Position numbers and translations under genes: made by a program. A DNA stretch of 33,792 bases, taken from assembly GCA_947379755.1 (NCBI GenBank), contig CANCOC010000035.1, positions 1 to 33,792 on the forward strand, written 5' to 3'. Below the pieces are notes generated by a model. The model was not told the DNA's origin. It searched no databases and saw only the letters and a program-made list of their open reading frames with translations. This document shows positions 2,207-12,992 of the stretch, one piece after another; the first letter of the stretch is position 1, and every line of letters starts with the position of its first letter. Source of the stretch: Alcaligenaceae bacterium. GTDB taxonomy: Bacteria; Pseudomonadota; Gammaproteobacteria; Burkholderiales; Burkholderiaceae_B.

Positions 2207-3115
2207 CTACCTGGATTGTTTGCGCAGGCCCAGTTTTATCACAGTCCCCACCACAATCAGCGCACCCAGCACCTGAATGAAAGCAATGGACTGGCCCAGG
2301 ATCAGCCACGCAAGAACCAGGGCAAAAATCGGTTCAACGTTCATGATCGCTGAATTTCCCACGACACCCAGCTTGGGCAGAACCGTAAACATGATGGTAA
2401 AACCCGTCCCATACAAGGCCGCCAGAGCAGCCAACCCCCACCAACCTGCGGTCGCATCTGGCCAGTGGAAATCTCCGGATAACTGCGTGCCACAGAAAGC
2501 GAGCACCCCGACCATCCACATTGTGGTTGCCGTGCGGATGCGCCCATCCAGATCGGCAGCTTCATGCTGTGTCAGCACCATCGCCAGACCAAACGTCGCG
2601 CCAGCAGTCAGGGCAAAGGCAACCCCCACACCCATCGCACTCCACTGCCCCTGCATTCCCAGTCCAGACGTTGCACCAAACACATCGAGGGCCAGCGCGA
2701 GACCAATGAGCAAAACAGGCATGGCACGCAAGACTTGAGGTTCGGGACGGTGGCCATAAAAAATGCGGGCCCACAGGGCAATCCAGAGTGGATACGTATT
2801 AAAGGAAAGTAAGGCCAGAGAGACCGGAAGCCTCATCACGGCGGAATAAAGGGTCAGACTTTGAACCGCCATCAACACTCCGATGACAGGAAGCACTTTC
2901 TTGTGTCGCGCGGTGAACTTCACCGGAACTCCCTGGATAAAAATCAGGAGGGTCACAACTAGCGCAGTCAGACAGCTGCGTACCGTCACAGCCGTGGCAA
3001 CATCAAGCCCGTGGTTAAACGCCACACGGGCTGCAACGTGATTCGCCCCCATCAGCAGGCCAACCAATAACAAGATGGCAAAAGCAGTCCGGGTCAGCTC
3101 ACTTTTAGCCTTCAC
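2207..3115 (-). CDS. EamA/DMT-superfamily membrane transporter
   Basis: The product of 302 residues has the two-repeat EamA layout of about ten hydrophobic helices. A short cytoplasmic N-terminus precedes TM1 (FAILLLVGLLMGANHVAARV), and PVSLALLSFNTYPLW shows the signature mid-repeat pattern. The second repeat begins near QWSAMGVGVAFALTAGATFG and ends with helices near NVEPIFALVLAWLILGQ. It closes with a basic tail, KLGLRKQSR. The start is a GTG at 3115 whose bases overlap the stop of the upstream TctC gene (GTGA), so translation is probably coupled. DMT proteins usually export or exchange metabolites and amino acids at the inner membrane. Beside two Bug proteins and CoA-ester enzymes it may move the carboxylate or a product of the pathway, but the substrate is not visible. 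Confidence 0.85.
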   Translation of the reverse strand: MKAKSELTRTAFAILLLVGLLMGANHVAARVAFNHGLDVATAVTVRSCLTALVVTLLIFIQGVPVKFTARHKKVLPVIGVLMAVQSLTLYSAVMRLPVSLALLSFNTYPLWIALWARIFYGHRPEPQVLRAMPVLLIGLALALDVFGATSGLGMQGQWSAMGVGVAFALTAGATFGLAMVLTQHEAADLDGRIRTATTMWMVGVLAFCGTQLSGDFHWPDATAGWWGLAALAALYGTGFTIMFTVLPKLGVVGNSAIMNVEPIFALVLAWLILGQSIAFIQVLGALIVVGTVIKLGLRKQSR

Positions 3116-4125
3116 TCAAGTTCAATCTTGGCATCGTGGATGATTTGCGCCCACTTGACGCGCTCCTGTCTGGCAAACGCATCAAAATGCGCAGCTGAGT
3201 CTCCGACCGTCACCGCACCTTGAGACAGCAGACGATCTTTGATCTCTGGATCATCCAGAATTTTGACACTTGCAGCATTGAGCTTTTCAATGATCTCGGG
3301 CGGTGTGCCCTTGCGTGCATAGAGTCCGAACCAGCCTTCCACTTCGTAACCAGCCAGGCCTGCTTCAGCGATGCTTGGCACATCTGGCAGCAGCGCAGAG
3401 CGTTTGACAGAAGTCACGCCGAGCGCGGTCAGTTTGCCTGAACGGATCAGTGGCAAACAGATCGGCAGATTACAAAACATCATGTCGACCCGACCGCCGA
3501 TCACATCGTTGACGACGGCAGGACTGCTTTTGTATGGCACATGAATCATGTCAGCATGCGCCATGCTTTTAAACATCTCACCGGACAGATGCATACTGCC
3601 GCCTGCCCCACTCGAACCAAAACTCATGCTTTGCGTTTTAAGCAAAGCCAATAACTCAGGCAGCGTCCTGGCCGGCACCTGCGGCCCGACCACCAGCACA
3701 TTGGTAACAGTTGCAATGTTTGTGATCGCAACAAAATCGCGCTGCGGATCGTACCTGGCATTTTTATGCAGCGTCACGTTGATCGCACCGATACTGGTGG
3801 GGCCCACCATCAAGGTATAACCGTTAGGCTGTGAGGCAAGCAAGAAGTTCGCACCAATGTTGCCATCGGCACCCGCCTTGTTTTCAGCAATGACGGGTTG
3901 ACCCAGATTTTCGGCTAACTTGTTGGCCAGTGTGCGGGCCAGGATATCCGTCAGCGTCCCCGCGGCAAAAGGCACCACCATGGTGATGGGCTTATTTGGA
4001 TAATCTGTCGTTTGCGCAGCCACGTTTACGTTGGCCAGCAGTGCTAAAAGTCCTGATATGCAGCACCCAAAAAAATATCGCCCGGACATCGCCCTGCGCA
4101 CACCCACAACAGATTGATTCAGCAT
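3112..4125 (-). CDS. Bug/TctC-family periplasmic solute-binding protein (copy 1)
   Basis: The product has 337 residues from the ATG at 4125. That ATG has an AAAGGGA Shine-Dalgarno and sits 14 bases after the dehydrogenase stop, so I rejected the longer in-frame extension to 4401. An N-terminal signal peptide runs through GCCISGLLALLANVNVAAQ. The mature start, DYPNKPITMVVPFAAGTLTD, is the Bug family signature, with the P-KPI-M-VPF ligand-loop motif. The family's second and third conserved blocks follow (VIAENKAGADGNIGAN and SFGSSGAGGSMHLSGEMF). Bug proteins bind small carboxylates in the periplasm and normally serve TctA/TctB. Neither membrane subunit is encoded here, as is common for the orphan Bugs of Alcaligenaceae. 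Confidence 0.92.
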   Translation of the reverse strand: MLNQSVVGVRRAMSGRYFFGCCISGLLALLANVNVAAQTTDYPNKPITMVVPFAAGTLTDILARTLANKLAENLGQPVIAENKAGADGNIGANFLLASQPNGYTLMVGPTSIGAINVTLHKNARYDPQRDFVAITNIATVTNVLVVGPQVPARTLPELLALLKTQSMSFGSSGAGGSMHLSGEMFKSMAHADMIHVPYKSSPAVVNDVIGGRVDMMFCNLPICLPLIRSGKLTALGVTSVKRSALLPDVPSIAEAGLAGYEVEGWFGLYARKGTPPEIIEKLNAASVKILDDPEIKDRLLSQGAVTVGDSAAHFDAFARQERVKWAQIIHDAKIELE

Positions 4126-4139
4126 GTAATCTGATCCCT

Positions 4140-4862
4140 TTAACCTGTCAGCCCAACTGAAAGTCCGCCACAGACGTATAGCAACTGTCCTGTAATAAAA
4201 CCAGCGCGACGGTCGATGAGCATGCACACGGCATGCGCGACTTCTTCGGGTGTGCCGAACCTGCCAACCGGAACCGATTCGCGAATCTTGATTGTTTGTG
4301 GAGCGTCGGGATGATTCGAGGCGGTAAATAATTCGGTTTCGATCGGCCCAGGGGCAATCGCATTGACAGTAATGCCCTGGGTCGCGGTTTCGAGCGCCCA
4401 CGTCCGAGTCATGCCAACCAGACCCGCCTTGGTGCCGCCGTATCCGGTGCGGCCCGACTTGCCTAAGCCTGCACGGCTACCAATATTGATAATCCGGCCA
4501 TACTTGTTGGCACGCATCGCTGGCAATACCGCCTGTGTCAGTAACAGAGGCGCAACCATATTTAGTGCCACCATCTGATCGATATCCTCAAGCTCGATAT
4601 CTTCAATTTTACCCACGTGAATCATGCCCGCGTTATTCACCAGATTCAGGATATCTTTTTTGGAGGCCCAGTCAGCGGCCGCCTCGCGTGTGCGTCTGGC
4701 ATCACTCAGATCGACTGATTCAAAAATCTCACCGGGCAACAGTTCTTTTGGTGCGGTACGGCTAAAGTTGATGACCTCATAGCCTTCATCGATGAGACGT
4801 TGCACCACAGCACGGCCAATGCCGCGACTGCCCCCGGTTACCAATGCAGTTGCGCCTTTCAT
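4140..4862 (-). CDS. Short-chain dehydrogenase/reductase (SDR, FabG-like)
   Basis: The product of 240 residues is a classical SDR of the Rossmann fold. The cofactor loop TGGSRGIG is at residues 8-15, NNAG is near 80, an active-site serine lies in INIGSRAG, and YGGTKAG supplies the Tyr and Lys. PG-IETELF follows in the substrate-lid region. It should oxidise a hydroxyl or reduce a keto group with NAD(P)(H). The start is the ATG at 4862, overlapping the upstream TctC stop (ATGA, 4859-4862), so I rejected the longer frame to 4901. Its place between two TctC genes is unusual and suggests it acts on the ligand the Bug proteins bind, or on its CoA derivative. That is inference. It is distinct from the housekeeping fabG at 23408-24145. 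Confidence 0.9.
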   Translation of the reverse strand: MKGATALVTGGSRGIGRAVVQRLIDEGYEVINFSRTAPKELLPGEIFESVDLSDARRTREAAADWASKKDILNLVNNAGMIHVGKIEDIELEDIDQMVALNMVAPLLLTQAVLPAMRANKYGRIINIGSRAGLGKSGRTGYGGTKAGLVGMTRTWALETATQGITVNAIAPGPIETELFTASNHPDAPQTIKIRESVPVGRFGTPEEVAHAVCMLIDRRAGFITGQLLYVCGGLSVGLTG

Positions 4863-5854
4863 TGTGCTTGAATCCCCCGTTCTTTCACAAGTTTTCCCCA
4901 TTTCTGGCGCTCTGTCTTTTCAAAAGCAGCCAGATCAGGACCAAATAAATTGCCAGGTGTTGCAGCAAGTCTCTCGTAAGCCTGCGCCACCTTCTCGGTC
5001 TTAAGTCCGATGCGGGCTGCTTCGATCAGTTTATCCACGATCGGTTGCGGAGTGCCTTTGGCTACGTAAATCGCAAACCACGCTGTCACATCAAAACCTG
5101 TTACACCAGACTCGGCAAAGGTAGGCAAATCTTTGGCAAACGGACTGCGCTCAGCTGATGTCACTGCAATCCCACGCACGCGCGAACCGTCCTTGATTTG
5201 ATTGATTGAACCTGGCAAATTATCAAATAACATATCTATCTGACCGCCAATCAACGCAGGCATGGATCCAGAGATGCCTTTGAACGGAACATGCAACAAC
5301 TCAACACCGGTCATCGCCTCGAAGTATGCGCCCGTCAAATGCGGCGACGAACCAATCCCAGGTGTTCCGTAAGTGAGCTTTTTGTCTTTGGCGTCCCGTG
5401 CCGCCTTGATCACATCACCCAGATTCTTCCAGGGCGAGGTCGCAGACACCACCAGCACGTTAGGCGTAGTGGAAACCAATGCGATTGGAATCAGGTCCTT
5501 CTCAGGATCGACCAGCATTTCTGGATATATAAACTGGTTGATCGTCTGGGTTCCAATTGTTCCCAGGCCAATGGTGTAGCCGTCTGGTTTGCTACGCGCC
5601 ACATAAGTCATCCCTAAATTGCCACCCGCACCGGGTCGGTTTTCAACCACCACGGTCTGCTTGAGCGCGTCTTCCATCGCGGCAGCAATTGAGCGACCAA
5701 AGATATCTGCTGCGCCGGCCGCAGGATATGGCACAACGACTGTCAGCGCCTTGTTTGGGAAATCCTGAGCCTGCGCAGCAGGAGATTGCGCCCAAAGACC
5801 ACCCATGACGGCGGCCAAAACCAGCGTGCGCATAAAAAAACGTCGTTGATGCAT
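4859..5854 (-). CDS. Bug/TctC-family periplasmic solute-binding protein (copy 2)
   Basis: The product has 331 residues from the ATG at 5854. That ATG is preceded by AGGAG (5860-5864) at good spacing; the frame stays open to 5962 but without a ribosome site. The signal peptide is MRTLVLAAVMGGLWAQSPAAQAQ with an AQA-type cleavage site. The mature protein opens DFPNKALTVVVPYPAAGAAD, then VVENRPGAGGNLG and TYGTPGIGSSPHLTGAYFE, the three conserved Bug blocks. It is the first gene of the leftward operon and its stop overlaps the dehydrogenase start. It is clearly diverged from copy 1, so the two probably bind different or differently modified ligands. No TctA/TctB genes are nearby. Confidence 0.92.
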   Translation of the reverse strand: MHQRRFFMRTLVLAAVMGGLWAQSPAAQAQDFPNKALTVVVPYPAAGAADIFGRSIAAAMEDALKQTVVVENRPGAGGNLGMTYVARSKPDGYTIGLGTIGTQTINQFIYPEMLVDPEKDLIPIALVSTTPNVLVVSATSPWKNLGDVIKAARDAKDKKLTYGTPGIGSSPHLTGAYFEAMTGVELLHVPFKGISGSMPALIGGQIDMLFDNLPGSINQIKDGSRVRGIAVTSAERSPFAKDLPTFAESGVTGFDVTAWFAIYVAKGTPQPIVDKLIEAARIGLKTEKVAQAYERLAATPGNLFGPDLAAFEKTERQKWGKLVKERGIQAQ

Positions 5855-5912
5855 ATGTTCTCCTGACGGTGCATGACCGCGATTGTTTTTAGTTTTATGA
5901 TCCGACTGATAA

Positions 5913-5930
5913 AGTACGTAAATAAGTACT
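5913..5930. promoter_or_regulatory. Candidate operator between the divergent carboxylate operons
   Basis: AGTAC (5913-5917) and GTACT (5926-5930) form an inverted repeat around 8 A/T-rich bases. AAGTAC also recurs as a direct repeat 12 bases apart (5912 and 5924). The site lies in the 146-base spacer between the starts at 5854 and 6001, next to the self-complementary ACTATAGT (5928-5935) that could supply -10 elements in either direction. A GntR-family regulator encoded in the rightward operon is the natural candidate to bind it. The match to any published GntR consensus is only loose. Confidence 0.4.
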
Positions 5931-6000
5931 ATAGTGCCATTCTGATTCAAACAATAGCACACGGCAAACGCTCTGGCACCCTATTTACTGGACGACCGCA

Positions 6001-7611
6001 ATGACATCAAACACTCCTTTTTTTGCAGCGCGGATGGCAAGCATTGCGCGTACACATGCCAGTCACCCTGCGTTGATCGACCGCAATATCGTCACGACGT
6101 TTAGCCAGCTCAATGAGCAGGTCAGCCAACTGGCGGGAAATCTGGCAAAACTGGGCATTCGAGCCAATGATCGTGTCGCCATCTGGCTGCCAAACTGTCT
6201 GGCCTGGGTTCAGGCATTTCTGGCCTGTGCGCACCTGGGTGCAACCGTACTGGCCGTCAACACACGGTTTCGCAGCAAAGAAGTCGCAGACATTATCGGT
6301 CGTGGCCATGCAGACTGGCTGATCATGTGGCCCGACTTCAAAGGCATTGCCTTTGCCGAGATCCTGGCAGATGTCGACCAGGAAGTACTTGGGCGCTTGC
6401 GTGGCGTCGTCACGCTGGGTGACAGCCGCAGTCCTGCAGTCCAGGCGATTGCCGCACGCGGCCATCATGTTCATGCGTTTGAAGATTTGCTCAACAGGCC
6501 TTGTGACACACCCGCGCCACATGGCAATGCGGGTGTGCTGTGCTTTACTACCTCCGGCACGACCTCGCTGCCCAAATTCGTACTGCATGACCACGCCAGC
6601 CTGCTTACACATGGAGATGGCATGCAGACAGCCTATGGCTACGACGCTGACAGCCGCATCTTTGCAAGCGCCCCCTTTTGTGGAGCCTTTGGTTTTTGCA
6701 CGCTGCTGGGCGGACTGGTGACAGGCTGTACGGTCGTCTGCGAACCTGTCACAGACACCCAGAGCACGCTTGAACAAATACGCCGTCATCAGGTCACGCA
6801 CACCTATGCCAATAACGAATCCATTCTTAAGGTGCTTGAAGCCTCAGCTTCGCCAACAGACTTCGCAAGTTGCAAGTTATTTGGCTTTGCCAATTTTTCT
6901 CCTGCCGTCACTAATCTGCTCGCACAAGCTGACCGTAACGGCTTGCCCCTCACCGGCCTGTATGGATCCAGCGAGTTGCAGGCGCTGGTGGCCGCACAAC
7001 CTACAGATCCTTCTCAGGGCGATGTCAGCGTGCGCTATCTGGCCGGAGGCCGACTGATTCATCCCACAGCCCTTGTGCGGGTCAGCGACCCCTCCACGGG
7101 CAAGACTCTGCCCCTCGGAGAGTCAGGTGAACTCGAAATCCTGTCTCCAAGCAGGATGCTGGGTTATCTGGACCAGCCCGAGGCCAGCGCAAAAGTGATG
7201 ACGGAAGATGGGTATTTTAAAACCGGAGACCTCGGATATTGCGTGAGCGACAGACAATTTGTCTTTCAGGCGCGCATGGGTGACTCAATGCGCCTTTCAG
7301 GATTTCTGGTCAACCCTGCCGAAATCGAACAAGCTGTTGAATCCTTACCAGGCGTGAAAGCTTGCCAGGTGGTCGGTGCCACGCTTGGCACAAAAACATT
7401 ACCGGTCGCTTTTGTCATTCTGGAACCCGGCGCCATACCGGACACCGTCGGATGGACCACAGAATGCAAGCGACGCATGGCGGGCTTTAAAGTGCCGGTC
7501 AGGTTTGAAGTACTGAGCGCCTTCCCTTCAATCGAAAGCGCCAATGCCGTCAAGATCCAGAAACACAAGATGCGCGAAATGGCAGATCAATTGCTGGCGG
7601 CTGACGCATGA
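6001..7611 (+). CDS. AMP-dependent acyl-CoA synthetase/ligase
   Basis: The product of 536 residues belongs to the ANL adenylating superfamily. It activates a carboxylic acid with ATP to an acyl-AMP and then to the CoA thioester in the cytoplasm. The phosphate-binding loop is FTTSGTTSLPK (182-192). The A5 motif is YGSSE (321-325), A7 is GYFKTGD (404-410), and the A8 hinge is near ARMGDSMRLSGF with Asp428. The A10 catalytic lysine is probably Lys518. The A8 hinge carries RL where many relatives have IK. The substrate-binding stretch FCGAFGFCTLL is small and hydrophobic, hinting at a short or medium-length acid, but this is weak evidence. It is the first gene of the rightward operon; its stop overlaps the regulator start (ATGA). 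Confidence 0.9.
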   Translation: MTSNTPFFAARMASIARTHASHPALIDRNIVTTFSQLNEQVSQLAGNLAKLGIRANDRVAIWLPNCLAWVQAFLACAHLGATVLAVNTRFRSKEVADIIGRGHADWLIMWPDFKGIAFAEILADVDQEVLGRLRGVVTLGDSRSPAVQAIAARGHHVHAFEDLLNRPCDTPAPHGNAGVLCFTTSGTTSLPKFVLHDHASLLTHGDGMQTAYGYDADSRIFASAPFCGAFGFCTLLGGLVTGCTVVCEPVTDTQSTLEQIRRHQVTHTYANNESILKVLEASASPTDFASCKLFGFANFSPAVTNLLAQADRNGLPLTGLYGSSELQALVAAQPTDPSQGDVSVRYLAGGRLIHPTALVRVSDPSTGKTLPLGESGELEILSPSRMLGYLDQPEASAKVMTEDGYFKTGDLGYCVSDRQFVFQARMGDSMRLSGFLVNPAEIEQAVESLPGVKACQVVGATLGTKTLPVAFVILEPGAIPDTVGWTTECKRRMAGFKVPVRFEVLSAFPSIESANAVKIQKHKMREMADQLLAADA

Positions 7612-8366
7612 CAGCCTCCAGCGGCCTGCTGTATTCGCGTAGTCCTCAGCCTCTGTATCTACAGGTCGCGACGATTTTCCGCCGCAACATTCAACGCGGG
7701 ATCTGGCCACCCGGCCAGCAAGTCCCGCCGCTCGAGTCATTGGTCGAGACACTGGGCGTCTCACGCGCGACCATCCGGCAGGCCTTTGGCCTGCTCGAAC
7801 GCGAAGGTCTGATTCACCGCTCACGCGGTTCCGGCACCTATGTTAATGATGAGTTACCTGAGACCTTCAGATTAACGCTGCCTAAAACATGGGCAGAAAC
7901 CGTAGCGCTTTCCAGTGCGTTGGGCACGACCACGATCATGGAGTCCAATGCAGACGTTGCCCTGCCCGCATCACTGGGCATGGAATGTCCTTACAGCACG
8001 CTCGGCAGCTTTCAATACCTGCGGCGCATTCACACCACCTCGGCAGGTCCATTTTGCTACACCGAAGTCTATCTGGACCGCGAACTCTACCGTCAGCATC
8101 CTGCCCGCTACCGTCACTCCACTGTTGCGCCGGTACTCGATGAGCTGCATGGCAAATCCCTGACCCATGCAGGCCAGCTGCTGACGATCATCGAAGCGGG
8201 TGCAGATTCCGCAGAAGCCCTGCACTTGCCGCTTGCGGCCCCCGTTGCAGAAATCCGGCGCTTTGCCTGCATAGCGGAAAGAGTCATCTACTTTGCCCGG
8301 CTGGAAATCCCCACCCGATACGTTCAAATGAAATTTGATTTGTTTGAGGATCATGTACATGTTTAA
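7608..8366 (+). CDS. GntR-family (HutC/UTRA type) transcriptional regulator
   Basis: The product has 252 residues. An N-terminal winged helix-turn-helix spans about residues 15-78; PLYLQVATIFRRNIQRG and SRATIRQAFGLLEREGLIHR fit the GntR signature, with the RGSGTYV wing. A UTRA effector-binding domain fills about residues 95-245, with FQYLRRIHTTSAGPFCYTEV-type strands. Such proteins usually repress a catabolic operon until a pathway metabolite binds. It starts inside the ligase stop codon and ends 8 bases inside the dehydrogenase gene, so it is made with the enzymes and is probably autoregulated. The likely target is the divergent spacer at 5855-6000. The effector is unknown but could be the acid or its CoA ester. 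Confidence 0.92.
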   Translation: MTASSGLLYSRSPQPLYLQVATIFRRNIQRGIWPPGQQVPPLESLVETLGVSRATIRQAFGLLEREGLIHRSRGSGTYVNDELPETFRLTLPKTWAETVALSSALGTTTIMESNADVALPASLGMECPYSTLGSFQYLRRIHTTSAGPFCYTEVYLDRELYRQHPARYRHSTVAPVLDELHGKSLTHAGQLLTIIEAGADSAEALHLPLAAPVAEIRRFACIAERVIYFARLEIPTRYVQMKFDLFEDHVHV

Positions 8367-9531
8367 TAACGATTCAATGCTGTTACCTTTTTTTGATGAT
8401 GCGCATCGTGCATTGCATCAGGATCTGCATGACTGGTCACGCGCCAACCTGCCGACACGGATTCACACAGGTAGCGTCGATCAGCGTTGCCAGCAGCTTG
8501 TGCGGATGCTAGGCGATGCGGGCTGGCTGCGTTATTGTGTCCCTGCCGAATACGGTGGCATTCTGCCCGGACTGGACTCTCGCAGCCTGTGTCTGATCCG
8601 CCAGACGCTCGGGTACTACGATGGCCTGGCAGATTTCGCTTTTGTCCTGCAAGGTCTGGGCAGTGGCCCCATCTCGCTCTTTGGCTCGGATTATCTGAAA
8701 CAAAAGTATTTACCCCACGTTGCCTCCGGCAAGATGCTAGCGGCCTTTGCACTGTCTGAACCAGATGCGGGCTCAGATGCGGCTGCGATGACCACGCGTG
8801 CGACACGCACCAGAGACGGCTATCGCATCAATGGTGTCAAGACCTGGATTTCGAATGCTGATATTGCAGATTTCTACACCGTCTTTGCCCGTACAGAAAA
8901 CGATGAGGTCGATGGTGTCACTGCCTTTGTCGTGGATGCCAATACGCCTGGCCTGAAGGTCACCGACCGGTTCGAGCTCTGTGCACCCCACCCGATTGGC
9001 ACACTTACATTTACCAACTGCGAGATTCCACTTTCGCAGCGTCTAACCGAGCCTGGCAAGGGTTTCAAGGTTGCCATGCAGAATCTCGATGTGTTCCGTG
9101 CCTCGGTCGGTGCGGCAGCGCTGGGCTTCGCAGAGGCCGCGCTGGACCTGGGCATTGCGCGCGCCAATACACGTCCGATGTTTGGCGGCATGCTGGGCGA
9201 TCTGCAAATCACACAGGCAGCCATCGGAGACATGAGCACAGAAGTCGATGCTGCTACGCTGCTGGTCTATCGCGCAGCCTGGGAACGTGATGTGCTGCAA
9301 AAGCGCACCACACGCTCAGCAGCCATGGCAAAGATGTTTGCAACAGAGTCAGCTCAAAGGGTGATCGACCGATGCGTGCAACTGCACGGTGGCCTGGGCG
9401 TCAAAGTCGGCCATCCACTCGAAATGTTGTATCGTGAAATTCGTGCATTACGAATATATGAAGGTGCGACTGAAATCCAGCAAGTTGTCATCGCACGCGA
9501 GACCATTAAAAACAAAACAGGAGCGGTATAA
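8359..9531 (+). CDS. Acyl-CoA dehydrogenase
   Basis: The product of 390 residues is an FAD-dependent enzyme that introduces an alpha,beta double bond into an acyl-CoA and passes electrons to ETF. Signature 1 is present as ALSEPDAGSDAAA (131-143). Signature 2 lies near QLHGGLGVKVGHPLEMLYRE, and the putative catalytic base is Glu368 in RIYEGATEIQ, the position used by medium- and short-chain enzymes. I chose the ATG at 8359 because GAGGA (8346-8350) is 8 bases upstream; ATGs at 8335 and 8353 are also in frame. The gene overlaps the regulator by 8 bases and is followed after 2 bases by the thiamine enzyme, so the set is one transcript. The acyl substrate is not evident. Confidence 0.92.
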   Translation: MFNNDSMLLPFFDDAHRALHQDLHDWSRANLPTRIHTGSVDQRCQQLVRMLGDAGWLRYCVPAEYGGILPGLDSRSLCLIRQTLGYYDGLADFAFVLQGLGSGPISLFGSDYLKQKYLPHVASGKMLAAFALSEPDAGSDAAAMTTRATRTRDGYRINGVKTWISNADIADFYTVFARTENDEVDGVTAFVVDANTPGLKVTDRFELCAPHPIGTLTFTNCEIPLSQRLTEPGKGFKVAMQNLDVFRASVGAAALGFAEAALDLGIARANTRPMFGGMLGDLQITQAAIGDMSTEVDAATLLVYRAAWERDVLQKRTTRSAAMAKMFATESAQRVIDRCVQLHGGLGVKVGHPLEMLYREIRALRIYEGATEIQQVVIARETIKNKTGAV

Positions 9532-9533
9532 AG

Positions 9534-11096
9534 ATGAACGGTTCAGAAGCAATGGTTCACACTTTGCTCGCAGGCGAGGTTGATGTATGTTTTGCCAATC
9601 CTGGCACCTCTGAGATGCACTTTGTATCTGCACTCGATCGTGCACCCAGGATGCGGTGTGTATTGGGCCTGTTCGAAGGTGTCGTGACCGGCGCTGCCGA
9701 TGGCTATTACCGGATGGCTGAAAAACCCGCTGCGACACTGCTGCATCTTGGACCTGGCCTGGGCAATGGCCTGGCTAATCTGCACAATGCCAAGCGCGCC
9801 TACTCCGGCATTGTGAACATTGTCGGTCAGCATGCACTCGATCACATCCATAACAATGCGCCTTTGAATTCCGATGTCGAAGCCGTTGCGCGCCCGATGT
9901 CGAACTGGGTCAAGACGACGATGTCTGCGACCGCTGCGCCGATCGATACCGCCGAAGCCATTTCACAAGCACGCAGCACACCAGGCCGCGTCGCCACGCT
10001 GGTGCTGCCTGCAAACTGCGCCTGGGAGCCCTCTGAGCCAGGACATTACTCGACAGCCCCAGCGCAGTCTGCTGCAGCCCCCCTGACAGAAACCGTACTG
10101 GCCCTGGCAAAATTACTGTCGAATCGCGCCCTCGCCGAACAAACGACCTTGCTACTGGGCGGGCCGGCTCTGCGCGCAAAGTCTGCAACACTGGCCGGCA
10201 GAATTGCCGCACACACGGGTTGCAAACTCGCCTCCGAGCCCCGGAATCCGCGCATGGAACGCGGCCGCGGACGTGTCAACGTTACATCGCTGCCCTTCCC
10301 CGTTGCAGGTGCGGTCGACATGCTCAAGGATACAAAGCATCTGGTGTTGGTCGGCAGTGCCACACCCGTCGCCTTTTTTGCCTATCCCGACAAACCCCGC
10401 ATGATCAAGCAGCCCGATTGCGAAGTGCATACGCTTGCCACGCTCACGCATGACATCGAGGCCTCGCTCCAGGCTTTAGTTGATGCACTGGGTGCAAACA
10501 ATGCCACTCCTGCACTGTTCTCTACAGAACCCGCGATCACGGACCTGCCAACTGGAGCGGCCACTGCCGACAACATCGGCTACATCATCGCCGCCGTCAT
10601 GCCTGAAAACGGCATCATGGTCGACGAAGCAGTGACCTCTGGCCGACAATTTGGCAAGGCCCTGCCCTTCGCTGCACCGCACGACTGCATCGACATCACT
10701 GGTGGGTCAATCGGCTTTGGCCTGCCCGCTGCTGTCGGTGCCGCCATTGCCTGCCCAGACCGTAAAGTGCTGGCGCTAATTGGCGATGGCAGCGCCATGT
10801 ACACCATCCAGTCATTGTGGACCATGGCACGCGAACAACTCGATGTCACAGTCGTGATTTTTGCCAATCGCTCTTACCGGATCCTGCGCGGCGAACTGGC
10901 CAACATGGGTGGTCCCGCGCCTGGCGTCAGTGCCGCTCGCATGCTCGACCTGGACAAACCCCATCTTGACTTTGTCTCGCTGGCCAAAGGCCATGGTGTT
11001 CCAGGCGTTCAAGTCAGCACACTTGAGGATCTGACCAGAGCATTGCGTGTGGCCATGAGTGAAAAAGGCCCACGACTGATTGAACTGGTGATGTAA
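9534..11096 (+). CDS. IlvX-like thiamine diphosphate-dependent enzyme (acetolactate synthase/benzoylformate decarboxylase family)
   Basis: The product of 520 residues has the three-domain TPP layout. VCFANPGTSEMHF and a thiazole-activating Glu48 (LFEGVVTG) lie in the PYR domain. His71 sits in LLHLGPGLGNG at the place of the active-site histidine of benzoylformate decarboxylase. A middle domain contains TPVAFFAYPDKP. The PP domain carries GDGS (417-420) and Asn445 for the metal and diphosphate. The N-terminus resembles the IlvX proteins often labelled acetolactate synthase large subunit, a label I doubt. No small subunit is present, and the neighbours suggest a 2-oxo-acid decarboxylase or a C-C lyase/ligase on an acyl-CoA-derived intermediate. 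GGAG lies 10 bases before the ATG. No terminator is obvious downstream. Confidence 0.85.
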   Translation: MNGSEAMVHTLLAGEVDVCFANPGTSEMHFVSALDRAPRMRCVLGLFEGVVTGAADGYYRMAEKPAATLLHLGPGLGNGLANLHNAKRAYSGIVNIVGQHALDHIHNNAPLNSDVEAVARPMSNWVKTTMSATAAPIDTAEAISQARSTPGRVATLVLPANCAWEPSEPGHYSTAPAQSAAAPLTETVLALAKLLSNRALAEQTTLLLGGPALRAKSATLAGRIAAHTGCKLASEPRNPRMERGRGRVNVTSLPFPVAGAVDMLKDTKHLVLVGSATPVAFFAYPDKPRMIKQPDCEVHTLATLTHDIEASLQALVDALGANNATPALFSTEPAITDLPTGAATADNIGYIIAAVMPENGIMVDEAVTSGRQFGKALPFAAPHDCIDITGGSIGFGLPAAVGAAIACPDRKVLALIGDGSAMYTIQSLWTMAREQLDVTVVIFANRSYRILRGELANMGGPAPGVSAARMLDLDKPHLDFVSLAKGHGVPGVQVSTLEDLTRALRVAMSEKGPRLIELVM

Positions 11097-11122
11097 GTTC
11101 CAGATTGAAAATCAGGGATTCC

Positions 11123-11161
11123 CCTAAGCCAGCCTTTGGGTATAGTGATGGCTTGCTTAGG
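11123..11161 (+). promoter_or_regulatory. Long imperfect inverted repeat upstream of the alcohol dehydrogenase
   Basis: CCTAAGCCAGCC (11123-11134) and GGCTTGCTTAGG (11150-11161) are inverted arms matching at 11 of 12 positions around a 15-base spacer. The element lies 27 bases after the thiamine-enzyme stop and 73 bases before the dehydrogenase start. No T-run follows on either strand, so it is not a standard intrinsic terminator. It could be an operator, or a hairpin that protects the upstream mRNA end. Confidence 0.5.
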
Positions 11162-11233
11162 AAATAACAAAACAACACATACAGATATTTTGTAAGCTAA
11201 CAATCTGATCTTTAGATCGAGGAGACTTTTATT

Positions 11234-12295
11234 ATGAAATGCTATTGCGTGGTCGATTTTAAAACCGCACTAAAAATGATGGACCAACCCACCCCTGAGC
11301 CCAAGGGAGCCGAGGTTCTGATTGAAGTACGTGCCGCAGGTGTTTGTCACAGTGACATTCACATCTGGGAAGGTGGCTATGATCTGGGCAATGGTCGCAC
11401 GCTCTCACTCAAAGAGCGCGGCATCAAACTGCCGATGACCATGGGTCACGAGACCGCTGGCACGGTCGTGGCGATGGGGCCAGATGCCAAAGGCATCGAA
11501 AAGGGTAAAAACTATCTGGTCTATCCCTGGATTGGCTGTGGCAAATGCCCTGCCTGCGTCGAGGATGATCTGGAAAACTATTGCGCCGCACCTCAATATC
11601 TTGGCGTGCACCGTGATGGCGGCTATGCCGATCATCTTCTGGTGCCAAACGCAAAATACCTGATCGACATCGGTGATCTGGATCCTGCCATGATCGCACC
11701 TTATGCGTGTTCTGGGATCACCACGTTTGGTGCACTCAACAAAGTCGGTGCAAAGACCTTCCAGAAACATCCTGTCGTCATCATGGGTGCAGGTGGTCTG
11801 GGCCTGATGTGTCTGGCACTGCTCAAGGCACAAAATGGTGCCGGTGCAATCGTGGTTGATATTGATCCCGCTAAACGCAAAGCCGCGATGGATGCAGGTG
11901 CGCTGGCTGCGATTGATGGTGCAGCACCTGACGCTGCGCAGCAAATCATTGCAGCCAATGGTGGCAAACTTGTGCATGCAGTGATTGATCTGGTGGGTGC
12001 CCCCTCAACGACCAGCCTGGGTTTTGACACATTGATCAAAGGTGGCAAACTGGTCATCGTTGGATTGTTTGGTGGTGCAGCACCCTGGCCGATCGCCTTC
12101 ATTCCAATGAAAGCCTTGCAGATCATCGGCAGCTACACAGGCTCACTAGCCGAGATGCGCGACCTGATGAAGCTGGTCAAAGATGGCAAGATTACGCCCA
12201 TTCCTGTTCACAAACATCCGCTTGCCGATGCAGACAAGGTCCTGACATCGCTACGCGAGGGCAAAGTGACAGGACGCGCAGTACTGACAGCTTAA
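11234..12295 (+). CDS. Zinc-dependent medium-chain alcohol dehydrogenase
   Basis: The product of 353 residues oxidises an alcohol with NAD in the cytoplasm. Catalytic zinc ligands are Cys38 (AGVCHSDIH) and the GHE motif at 71-73, with Cys159 as a possible third ligand. Structural zinc cysteines lie in GCGKCPACVEDDLENYC (Cys102, 105, 108 and the one near 117). The nucleotide loop is GAGGLG (185-190). An aspartate ends the second beta strand (VVDIDP), which favours NAD over NADP. GAGGAG precedes the ATG by about 9 bases. It has its own spacer of 137 bases and its own terminator, so it is probably a separate unit from the carboxylate operon, although both could serve the same pathway. The substrate is unknown. 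Confidence 0.92.
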   Translation: MKCYCVVDFKTALKMMDQPTPEPKGAEVLIEVRAAGVCHSDIHIWEGGYDLGNGRTLSLKERGIKLPMTMGHETAGTVVAMGPDAKGIEKGKNYLVYPWIGCGKCPACVEDDLENYCAAPQYLGVHRDGGYADHLLVPNAKYLIDIGDLDPAMIAPYACSGITTFGALNKVGAKTFQKHPVVIMGAGGLGLMCLALLKAQNGAGAIVVDIDPAKRKAAMDAGALAAIDGAAPDAAQQIIAANGGKLVHAVIDLVGAPSTTSLGFDTLIKGGKLVIVGLFGGAAPWPIAFIPMKALQIIGSYTGSLAEMRDLMKLVKDGKITPIPVHKHPLADADKVLTSLREGKVTGRAVLTA

Positions 12296-12314
12296 GTAAC
12301 AATTGAAGTCAGAC

Positions 12315-12346
12315 AATGCCCGGTGAATCTGCCGGGCATTTTTTTT
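12315..12346 (+). terminator. Intrinsic terminator after the alcohol dehydrogenase
   Basis: AATGCCCGG (12315-12323) pairs perfectly with CCGGGCATT (12332-12340) around an 8-base loop, followed by a T-run to 12346. It lies 20 bases after the stop codon. On the minus strand no T-run follows, so it should act mainly rightward; recO approaches from the other side. Confidence 0.93.
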
Positions 12347-12389
12347 GAATCAGCCTGACTGATGAATGTTGATGAATGAAGTTTGGCCC

Positions 12390-12992
12390 TCAAGTCTTTG
12401 CGGCCTGATAACGCTGCAAAGACATCAACACCTGGCGTGTCGCCAGCGGCTTACCGGCCAGATGCTCAGAGAGTCGTTCACGCAACCTGATGCGTAATTC
12501 AGGCTCTGTCTGCGCATTTTGAAAGTCTGGTTCCTCTTCATCCAGACCATACCCGGACTCCTGCAGCAGTGTCCATTCAAAGCGACGCAACTCCCCTGCG
12601 GCAGACTGCCCCGCTGCCAGTCGTTGCAAGGCAATCACGTACGCATCAAACAAGACGGGATGGGAGTCTTCGTGTGGCAACAAACGAAACAGCAATTCGT
12701 TCATGTACCAGCATGACATCATGGCTGGCCCTTGCAAGGGATGGACCCCTGCACATTCGGCACGCGTCAGTGTCTTGACCTCACCGGCCCCCGTCCAGGA
12801 CAGCAACAAAGGCTGAAAAACAGACAACGCAGGCCTGAGCAAGGAGTGCGGGCGCTTGGCGCCTTTGGCGACCATCGTCACCCAACCATGATCTCTGGAA
12901 AATACTTGAACAATCAGGGAAGTTTCGCGCCAGGCCGTTGTATGCAACACATAGCCCGGCGAATCGAGTACGCGTAATACGCGTCTACTCAT
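12390..12992 (-). CDS. recO: DNA repair protein RecO (short form)
   Basis: The product of 200 residues has the RecO N-terminal OB-fold pattern: GYVLHTTAWRETSLIVQVFSRDHGWV, then VAKGAKRPHSLLRPALSVF. A helical C-terminal domain contains CWYMNELLFRLLP and RRFEWTLLQESGYGLD. RecO loads RecA onto SSB-coated DNA with RecR. Typical RecO proteins are about 220-260 residues. Here the stretch after GYGLD leads almost directly to a final helix (RLRERLSEHLAGKPLATRQVL), so the segment that often carries zinc-binding cysteines is lacking. The start is the ATG at 12992, overlapping the Era stop by 8 bases; the longer frame to 13058 lies inside era and is not credible. Confidence 0.92.
   Translation of the reverse strand: MSRRVLRVLDSPGYVLHTTAWRETSLIVQVFSRDHGWVTMVAKGAKRPHSLLRPALSVFQPLLLSWTGAGEVKTLTRAECAGVHPLQGPAMMSCWYMNELLFRLLPHEDSHPVLFDAYVIALQRLAAGQSAAGELRRFEWTLLQESGYGLDEEEPDFQNAQTEPELRIRLRERLSEHLAGKPLATRQVLMSLQRYQAAKT

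Follow-up and report, generated by a model that had tools for sequence, protein, structure and literature searches.

A conserved divergent gene locus in an Alcaligenaceae bacterium, with a predicted GntR operator and a possible role in organic-acid use

In the Alcaligenaceae bacterium represented by GenBank assembly GCA_947379755.1, a stretch of 33,792 nucleotides (contig CANCOC010000035.1, positions 1 to 33,792 of the forward strand; referred to here as the window) contains two divergent gene units that constitute a real and conserved locus, the two halves of which are probably under joint control. An 18-bp inverted repeat in the region shared by the two halves is predicted to be the operator that couples them. 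Gene content, co-conservation of the genes, intact landmark residues in the encoded enzymes, and the association of the repeat with a gene for a GntR-type regulator were established directly. With some reserve, we incline toward the whole model, in which the locus is under local regulation and serves the catabolism of one organic-acid class.

The open reading frame list, the sequence, and Pfam/NCBIfam scans bore out three features given in a preliminary description of this DNA, namely eight genes in divergent arrangement, a shared gap of 146 bases (5855-6000, between the first codons of TctC2 at 5854 and of the ligase at 6001), and tight junctions. Overlaps of 4 bp were located at the EamA/TctC1, SDR/TctC2 and ligase/GntR junctions, the 14-bp gap between the SDR and TctC1 genes, and the 2-bp gap between the genes for the acyl-CoA dehydrogenase and the thiamine diphosphate (ThDP) enzyme, while the GntR and dehydrogenase genes overlap or have 10 bp between them, according to the dehydrogenase start chosen. 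The eight genes as such did not hold up as the unit: EamA and TctC1 proved to be local, an alcohol dehydrogenase (ADH) gene had been missed, and the wider core includes a PF04199 gene. The zinc-dependent ADH belongs to the rightward unit and was found in all 14 usable loci of the closest tier. In a scan of 10900-12500, the hairpin at 12315-12340 was the sole terminator-like match on the + strand (four matches on both strands versus 1.5 in shuffles), and no + strand terminator-like site was detected in the interval between the ThDP enzyme and ADH genes. The features are listed by coordinates, strand and description.

2207-3115, - strand: EamA/DMT-type transporter (Pfam PF00892; GTG start), a local extra outside the conserved core
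3112-4125, - strand: TctC1, Bug-type periplasmic binder (PF03401), a local extra
4140-4862, - strand: SDR oxidoreductase (Pfam passed; best NCBIfam match, PRK07577, below its cut-off)
4859-5854, - strand: TctC2, Bug-type periplasmic binder (PF03401; scanned from 5833)
5855-6000: divergent control region, 146 bp
5913-5930: predicted GntR operator AGTACGTAAATAAGTACT, one mismatch to AGTACGTA-NN-TACGTACT
5928-5935: self-complementary octamer ACTATAGT, with -10-like TATAGT at 5930-5935
6001-7611, + strand: AMP-forming acyl-CoA ligase of the PRK06164/NF004814 family (693.4 bits, cut-off 677)
7608-8366, + strand: GntR/UTRA (HutC-type) regulator (PF00392 and PF07702 above cut-off)
8353, 8359 or 8377 (start ambiguous) to 9531, + strand: acyl-CoA dehydrogenase (Pfam passed)
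9534-11096, + strand: ThDP enzyme of the PRK07586/'IlvX' family, benzoylformate-decarboxylase-like (NF005760, 713.2 bits, cut-off 363)
11234-12295, + strand: zinc-dependent ADH (PF08240/PF00107), last gene of the rightward unit
12315-12340, + strand: terminator-like hairpin, 11-pair stem and T run

Loci for comparison came from two sources, 32 from named genome records retrieved with the ThDP enzyme as the query, and others from stretches around ligase matches in genomes of the family; because the named-record set was found with the ThDP enzyme, its counts for this enzyme lean high. Of 200 family genomes, 63 had a ligase match at E ≤ 1e-80, some of them with no match other than paralogues of 34-41% identity. 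For the partner counts, duplicate ligases were removed and a ligase identity of at least 44%, with at least 4.5 kb of upstream and 5.2 kb of downstream sequence, was required; the window was left out, EamA was counted where there was enough flank, and TctC1 was counted at a 50% identity cut. Three tiers were defined by ligase identity: tier A (at least 64%, 14 of 27 loci usable), in which the members from the family-genome sample belong to the same genus as the window, tier B (54-64%, 23 of 24 usable), and tier C (44-54%, 15 of 18 usable). L098 and L100, which print as 44% yet fall below the cut, were dropped; L100 carries SDR, GntR, dehydrogenase, TctC and PF04199 genes, and L098 carries none of these.

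No partner accompanied the ligase more constantly than SDR, present in 51 of the 52 full-flank loci, and this bore out the expectation that the two halves are kept together across genera. A TctC of any identity was located within 4.5 kb of the ligase in 46/52 loci and GntR was present in 41/52. In tier A, SDR, TctC2, dehydrogenase and ADH were found in all 14 usable loci, the ThDP enzyme in 13, GntR in 11 and the PF04199 'cyclase' in none. The co-occurrence expected of the original eight genes was borne out in part, as their core was retained in other genera, where gene order and place differ, but EamA was found in just 3 and TctC1 in just 1 of these 14 tier A loci; EamA lies 8.6 kb away in one of the three (L119), and TctC1 is also present in L010, whose flank was too short for counting. 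Tier B contained SDR in 23 of 23 loci, GntR in 18, TctC2 and the cyclase in 16 each, any TctC within 4.5 kb in 17, the ThDP enzyme in 6, dehydrogenase in 5 and ADH in 4, and tier C contained SDR and the cyclase in 14 of 15, GntR in 12, dehydrogenase in 9, the ThDP enzyme in 3 and ADH in none, with TctC2 found in 2 by the identity cut and any TctC within 4.5 kb in all 15. The conserved core of the more distant loci thus consists of SDR, a PRK06164-type ligase, a Bug/TctC binder and GntR, usually with the PF04199 'cyclase', and by these counts the acyl-CoA dehydrogenase, ThDP enzyme and ADH are less constant than this core.

As a negative control, five loci with paralogous ligases (37-39% identity) were inspected, and with identity cuts unchanged none of the five had SDR, TctC2, GntR, dehydrogenase, the ThDP enzyme, ADH or cyclase; two had a distant TctC (33 and 39% identity), which in L107 was within 4.5 kb. 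This control and the other genera are the evidence that the locus may be a functional unit. The window and nine tier A loci (L009, L011, L013, L017, L023-L026 and L071, the last from the same genome as L025) lie beside a block that we take, by recognizing its sequences, to be recO-era-rnc, and L084-L086 of one neighboring genus are also located at this site. Within the genus of the window, 10 of 11 sampled genomes had the ligase, and G194 had neither the ligase nor the ThDP enzyme at E ≤ 1e-80. Of 369 genomes sampled across the class, with the window's own genome set aside and scoring limited to three candidates in each, two had a ligase match (E ≤ 1e-110), both at 40-41% identity; because this sample gave no ligase match above 41%, the locus looks lineage-bound.

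Alignment of the tier A divergent regions identified one conserved island amid drifting sequence, which contained the octamer ACTATAGT. Of these 25 regions, 24 have the octamer, L119 being the only region without GntR that does not. In tier B, k-mer counts revealed the 18-bp inverted repeat AGTACGTA-AA-TACGTACT, and the sequences upstream of the ligase were scanned for AGTACGTA-NN-TACGTACT with up to 3 mismatches, with the window included and L030, L035 and L078, which have no upstream stretch, left out. The repeat was found in 14 of 16 tier A loci with a GntR gene versus 1 of 10 without one, and in 17 of 18 versus 1 of 5 in tier B, giving 31/34 versus 2/15 for the two tiers together, where first-order shuffles led to a summed expectation of about 0.05 loci (about 0.06 over all tiers). 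The site at 5913-5930 was the only one with at most two mismatches in the genome of the window; two further places had three mismatches, a looseness at which a reversed control pattern gave 32 matches per strand.

A rightward promoter-like match was detected, with CTGATA at 5906-5911 and TATAGT at 5930-5935, 18 bp apart, and the predicted operator lies in the spacer. Two such rightward matches were found in the stretch versus 0.6 in shuffles, and no leftward promoter-like match was reported by the scan, though ACTATAGT can be read on both strands. Because the site associates with the regulator gene, a local GntR operator is the best reading, notwithstanding the caveats given below. The idea that the two halves share their control is borne out as a prediction, with one predicted operator in the common gap.

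The landmark residues of the enzymes, whose positions we assigned from family motifs, were intact. The Ser/Tyr/Lys set of the SDR was kept in 66/66 distinct homologues, the P-loop Lys192 and the C-terminal Lys518 of the ligase in 50/50 sequences, Glu370 of the YEG motif of the dehydrogenase in 47/47, and Glu48 and His71 of the ThDP enzyme in 35/35, the first Gly of the ThDP motif being Ala in 1/35. Like other PRK07586/IlvX ThDP enzymes, the enzyme of the window passes NF005760, its Glu and His being equivalent to Glu47 and His70 of benzoylformate decarboxylase (BFD), for which we assumed the usual numbering, and among solved structures it was closest to benzoylformate decarboxylases by sequence comparison. 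In an alignment to the BFD chain 4k9p, Thr25 stands at BFD Ser26 and Phe282 at BFD His281, both invariant in 35/35, and the reference chain itself reads Tyr at the column taken for position 281. Because Ser26 is replaced by Thr and His281 by Phe while His70 and Glu47 are kept, the enzyme is BFD-like but not BFD, and the name 'acetolactate synthase' given to the IlvX/PRK07586 family would be a family label only.

The ligase scores above the curated cut-off of PRK06164 (NF004814), a family that itself names no substrate; no solved structure matched it at E ≤ 1e-40, and its best solved matches were a fatty-acyl-CoA synthase and a feruloyl-CoA synthetase, both at about 5e-34. The solved structures nearest to the dehydrogenase were 5jsc and 5idu. 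TctC2 has solved relatives with similar scores (2dvz, BugD and terephthalate binders), none of them decisive. The SDR, dehydrogenase and ADH passed Pfam cut-offs, and no NCBIfam cut-off was passed among the matches listed. A glutaryl-CoA-type decarboxylating dehydrogenase was set aside, its match being below the cut-off, and so was a carnitine system of the CaiB/CaiC type, since CoA-transferases occurred only in distant contexts such as L038.

The ThDP enzyme was matched at E ≤ 1e-80 in 93 of the 200 family genomes, and its linkage to the core varied. In L119, from genome G086 of the window's own genus, ADH, dehydrogenase, ligase, TctC2 and SDR are present and the ThDP gene is absent from its place; no GntR match is left in this locus, and the sole ThDP match of the genome is 44% identical and on another contig. 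Where the ThDP gene would stand, between dehydrogenase and ADH (L119:6342-7598), there is a periplasmic-binding-protein-like gene, which we judge by eye to resemble the Peripla_BP_6 protein of L074. Conversely, L134 (G032) retains SDR, the ThDP enzyme and ADH, and G032 gave no ligase match at E ≤ 1e-80 and no PF04199 match at E ≤ 1e-30. Rearranged contexts in other genera also place the ThDP gene no more than 10 kb from the core (L038/L136, which are one contig found twice, L079, L092, L093 and L135); in L038 it adjoins two CoA-transferases, a second dehydrogenase, a second ligase and a GH88-like protein. Two further ThDP loci, L034 and L037, have no core gene at the cuts used. Given the split in L119 and L134, the rearranged contexts and the frequency of linkage (see below), the ThDP enzyme is best regarded as a recurrent but separable partner.

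The preliminary description had suggested that the ThDP enzyme performs the chain-breaking step, as enoyl-CoA hydratase and thiolase appeared to be missing. Indeed, neither was found among the ten genes scanned, but elsewhere in the genome there were 21 enoyl-CoA-hydratase-family and 7 thiolase C-terminal matches over the cut-off, three of the latter strong. Since these enzymes are encoded elsewhere, the ThDP enzyme need not break the chain, and with its separation from ligase or dehydrogenase in L119 and L134 the suggestion was not borne out.

Protein families suggest the following order of reactions, mode of import and repression. TctC2 would capture the acid, with a membrane partner presumably encoded elsewhere: the ten genes scanned included no TctA or TctB, a single TctA is encoded elsewhere in the genome, and the TctB search was confined to those ten. 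The PRK06164 ligase would convert the acid to a CoA thioester and the SDR would interconvert hydroxyl and keto groups, these steps forming the core; the acyl-CoA dehydrogenase would desaturate the thioester to an enoyl-CoA, and general hydratases and thiolases encoded elsewhere would finish the breakdown. The ThDP enzyme and the zinc-dependent ADH would be a separable add-on, in which most likely a 2-oxo acid is decarboxylated to an aldehyde that is handled by the ADH. GntR/UTRA would repress both divergent operons via the repeat at 5913-5930 and be released by the acid or a derivative.

Several observations weigh against this reading. At the cut used, no operator was found in tier C, either in the 14 loci with a GntR gene or in the 4 without, although the sites of L088 and L089, with 4 and 5 mismatches, surpassed those in every one of 100 shuffles. 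The operator rule is broken by L025, L026 and L085, which have a GntR gene and no good site, and by L087 and L119, which have a site and no GntR gene; moreover, the loci that were scored are the ones from which the motif was derived, and they are related. Tier A is weak evidence alone, because it largely reflects one chromosomal site and therefore partly mere inheritance, and a TctC of any kind within 4.5 kb is a weak criterion, since control locus L107 has one too. By hand count, with the own genome included, 19 of 93 genomes have their best ThDP match no more than 10 kb from a ligase match. The locus is without the aldehyde-oxidizing step needed for the ADH product, and the solved structures of relatives point to no substrate for its proteins.

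The alternative that survives best, which we regard as possible and not as the favored explanation, is that two unrelated functions, acid activation (TctC2-SDR/ligase-GntR) and a 2-oxo-acid or aldehyde unit (ThDP enzyme-ADH), came together at one site by chance and were inherited in one genus. The separability of the parts in L119 and L134, the common place beside recO-era-rnc, the greater rarity of the ThDP enzyme and ADH in the more distant tiers, and L034 and L037 all agree with it, as does a hand count over the 93 family genomes with a ThDP match, 74 of which have the ThDP gene away from the ligase; the occurrence of this gene within 10 kb of the core in the rearranged contexts, and the lack of a + strand terminator-like site between it and ADH, do not. 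A single linear route is unlikely, with the ThDP enzyme standing in for hydratase and thiolase to cleave a chain that has been CoA-activated, desaturated and re-oxidized. It would account for the 2-bp spacing between the ThDP gene and the dehydrogenase in the window, for the nearness of the ThDP gene to ligase and dehydrogenase in several arrangements, and for family members beside acyl-CoA genes in Bradyrhizobium CB82, Pseudosulfitobacter pSMR1-3 and Variovorax TBEA6 (VPARA_05550). Yet L119 keeps ligase, dehydrogenase, SDR, TctC2 and ADH without the ThDP enzyme, L134 keeps SDR, the ThDP enzyme and ADH without the ligase, just 6/23 tier B and 3/15 tier C loci have it, its closest solved relatives by sequence are benzoylformate decarboxylases, hydratase- and thiolase-family genes are available elsewhere, and deletion of VPARA_05550 is described as leaving growth on thiodipropionate unaltered.

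A PF04199 protein of about 347 residues was encoded in 30 of the 38 usable tier B and C loci, as a rule adjoining the ligase, and the L086 copy (L086:7999-9042) scored 44 bits against PF04199, for which the cut-off is 23.1. In what we take to be the metal motif of this family, HxGTHxDxPxH, both motif His were Gln in 35/35 sequences, with Asp and the last His kept, and the copies read had QYSTQWDxLxH; the sole solved relative found, 5ibz ('uncharacterized protein'), likewise reads STQWDALSH. The window locus is without this gene, and the single match in its genome is a 53% paralogue on another contig. It is conceivable, and in our judgment rather improbable, that a route carried elsewhere by SDR, the PRK06164 ligase, a Bug binder and, in most tier B and C loci, a PF04199 protein with neither metal-binding His has its PF04199 step replaced in the close relatives of the window by a dehydrogenase/ThDP/ADH branch that cleaves the activated acid via thiamine chemistry; this would be an undescribed way of degrading an acid in Alcaligenaceae.

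Among open PMC papers, no description of this gene combination was found in the matches listed, which agrees with the initial view that the locus corresponds to no pathway that can be named, but each part is of a known kind. The nearest printed relative within the same matches comes from Variovorax paradoxus TBEA6, where VPARA_05550 lies beside the thiodipropionate cluster; like the ThDP gene of the window, VPARA_05550 is IlvX-named and adjoins acyl-CoA genes, its protein was more abundant on organic sulfur acids, and the deletion had no growth phenotype on thiodipropionate (PMC6370202). Unlike the window locus, the TBEA6 cluster holds hydratases (PMC6370202), and the likeness is one of gene name and setting. 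That the locus is a relative of the 3,3'-thiodipropionate/dithiodipropionate loci of Variovorax and Advenella is very improbable: an IlvX gene is reported beside the former, two TctC genes are reported beside the acyl-CoA-dehydrogenase-family desulfinase of the latter, and the window dehydrogenase has a match to 3-sulfinopropanoyl-CoA desulfinase, but this match scores 193.6 bits, where the cut-off is 600, and five other models rank above it, and no dioxygenase (3-mercaptopropionate dioxygenase included) or CoA-transferase family was detected among the ten genes scanned. In the main text of the Advenella paper, a word search found neither 'acetolactate' nor 'cyclase'.

The binder resembles the orphan Bug proteins Bug27 and Bug69, described as encoded without TctA/TctB beside them and adjoining genes that use the presumed ligand, as in the window (PMC11452294); for orphan Bugs, import through a membrane partner encoded elsewhere has been suggested (PMC11452294). 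In plasmid records, ligase relatives reached 38.4% identity at most. Of six annotated plasmid loci centered on the ThDP enzyme, four have an aldehyde dehydrogenase no more than 8 kb from the family member and two have an acyl-CoA synthetase, both counts being without a base rate. Plasmid relatives of the ThDP enzyme and PF04199 protein were found in mixed contexts, with no common substrate named among the 8 loci inspected, one of them unannotated.

Three further regions were noted. A PhaZ polyhydroxyalkanoate depolymerase gene (window:718-1992; TIGR01849 above cut-off) stands beside the locus and was found in 1 of 14 usable tier A loci, with a partial copy at the edge of L010. In the same genome, L109 (contig C89) contains a second ligase, 37-40% identical, with none of the partners at the cuts used. 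The PF04199 paralogue on contig C3 (L138:4296-20000) is accompanied by Liv-type ABC genes, an IclR-like regulator, an AtuA-like protein, TctC and a thiolase-like gene; with gene names given mostly by eye, this region is apparently another acid-use locus.

In conclusion, what began as a loose list of genes can now be tested as a unit, comprising a core, an add-on and a single predicted operator, that is conserved in different genera of a family to which freshwater lineages such as Zwartia and Jezberella belong. As it stands, the locus is well delimited and its enzymes are of ordinary kinds. If its substrate is found, this would help to assign functions to the ligase family, the orphan Bug binder, the 'acetolactate synthase' family and the odd PF04199 subfamily.

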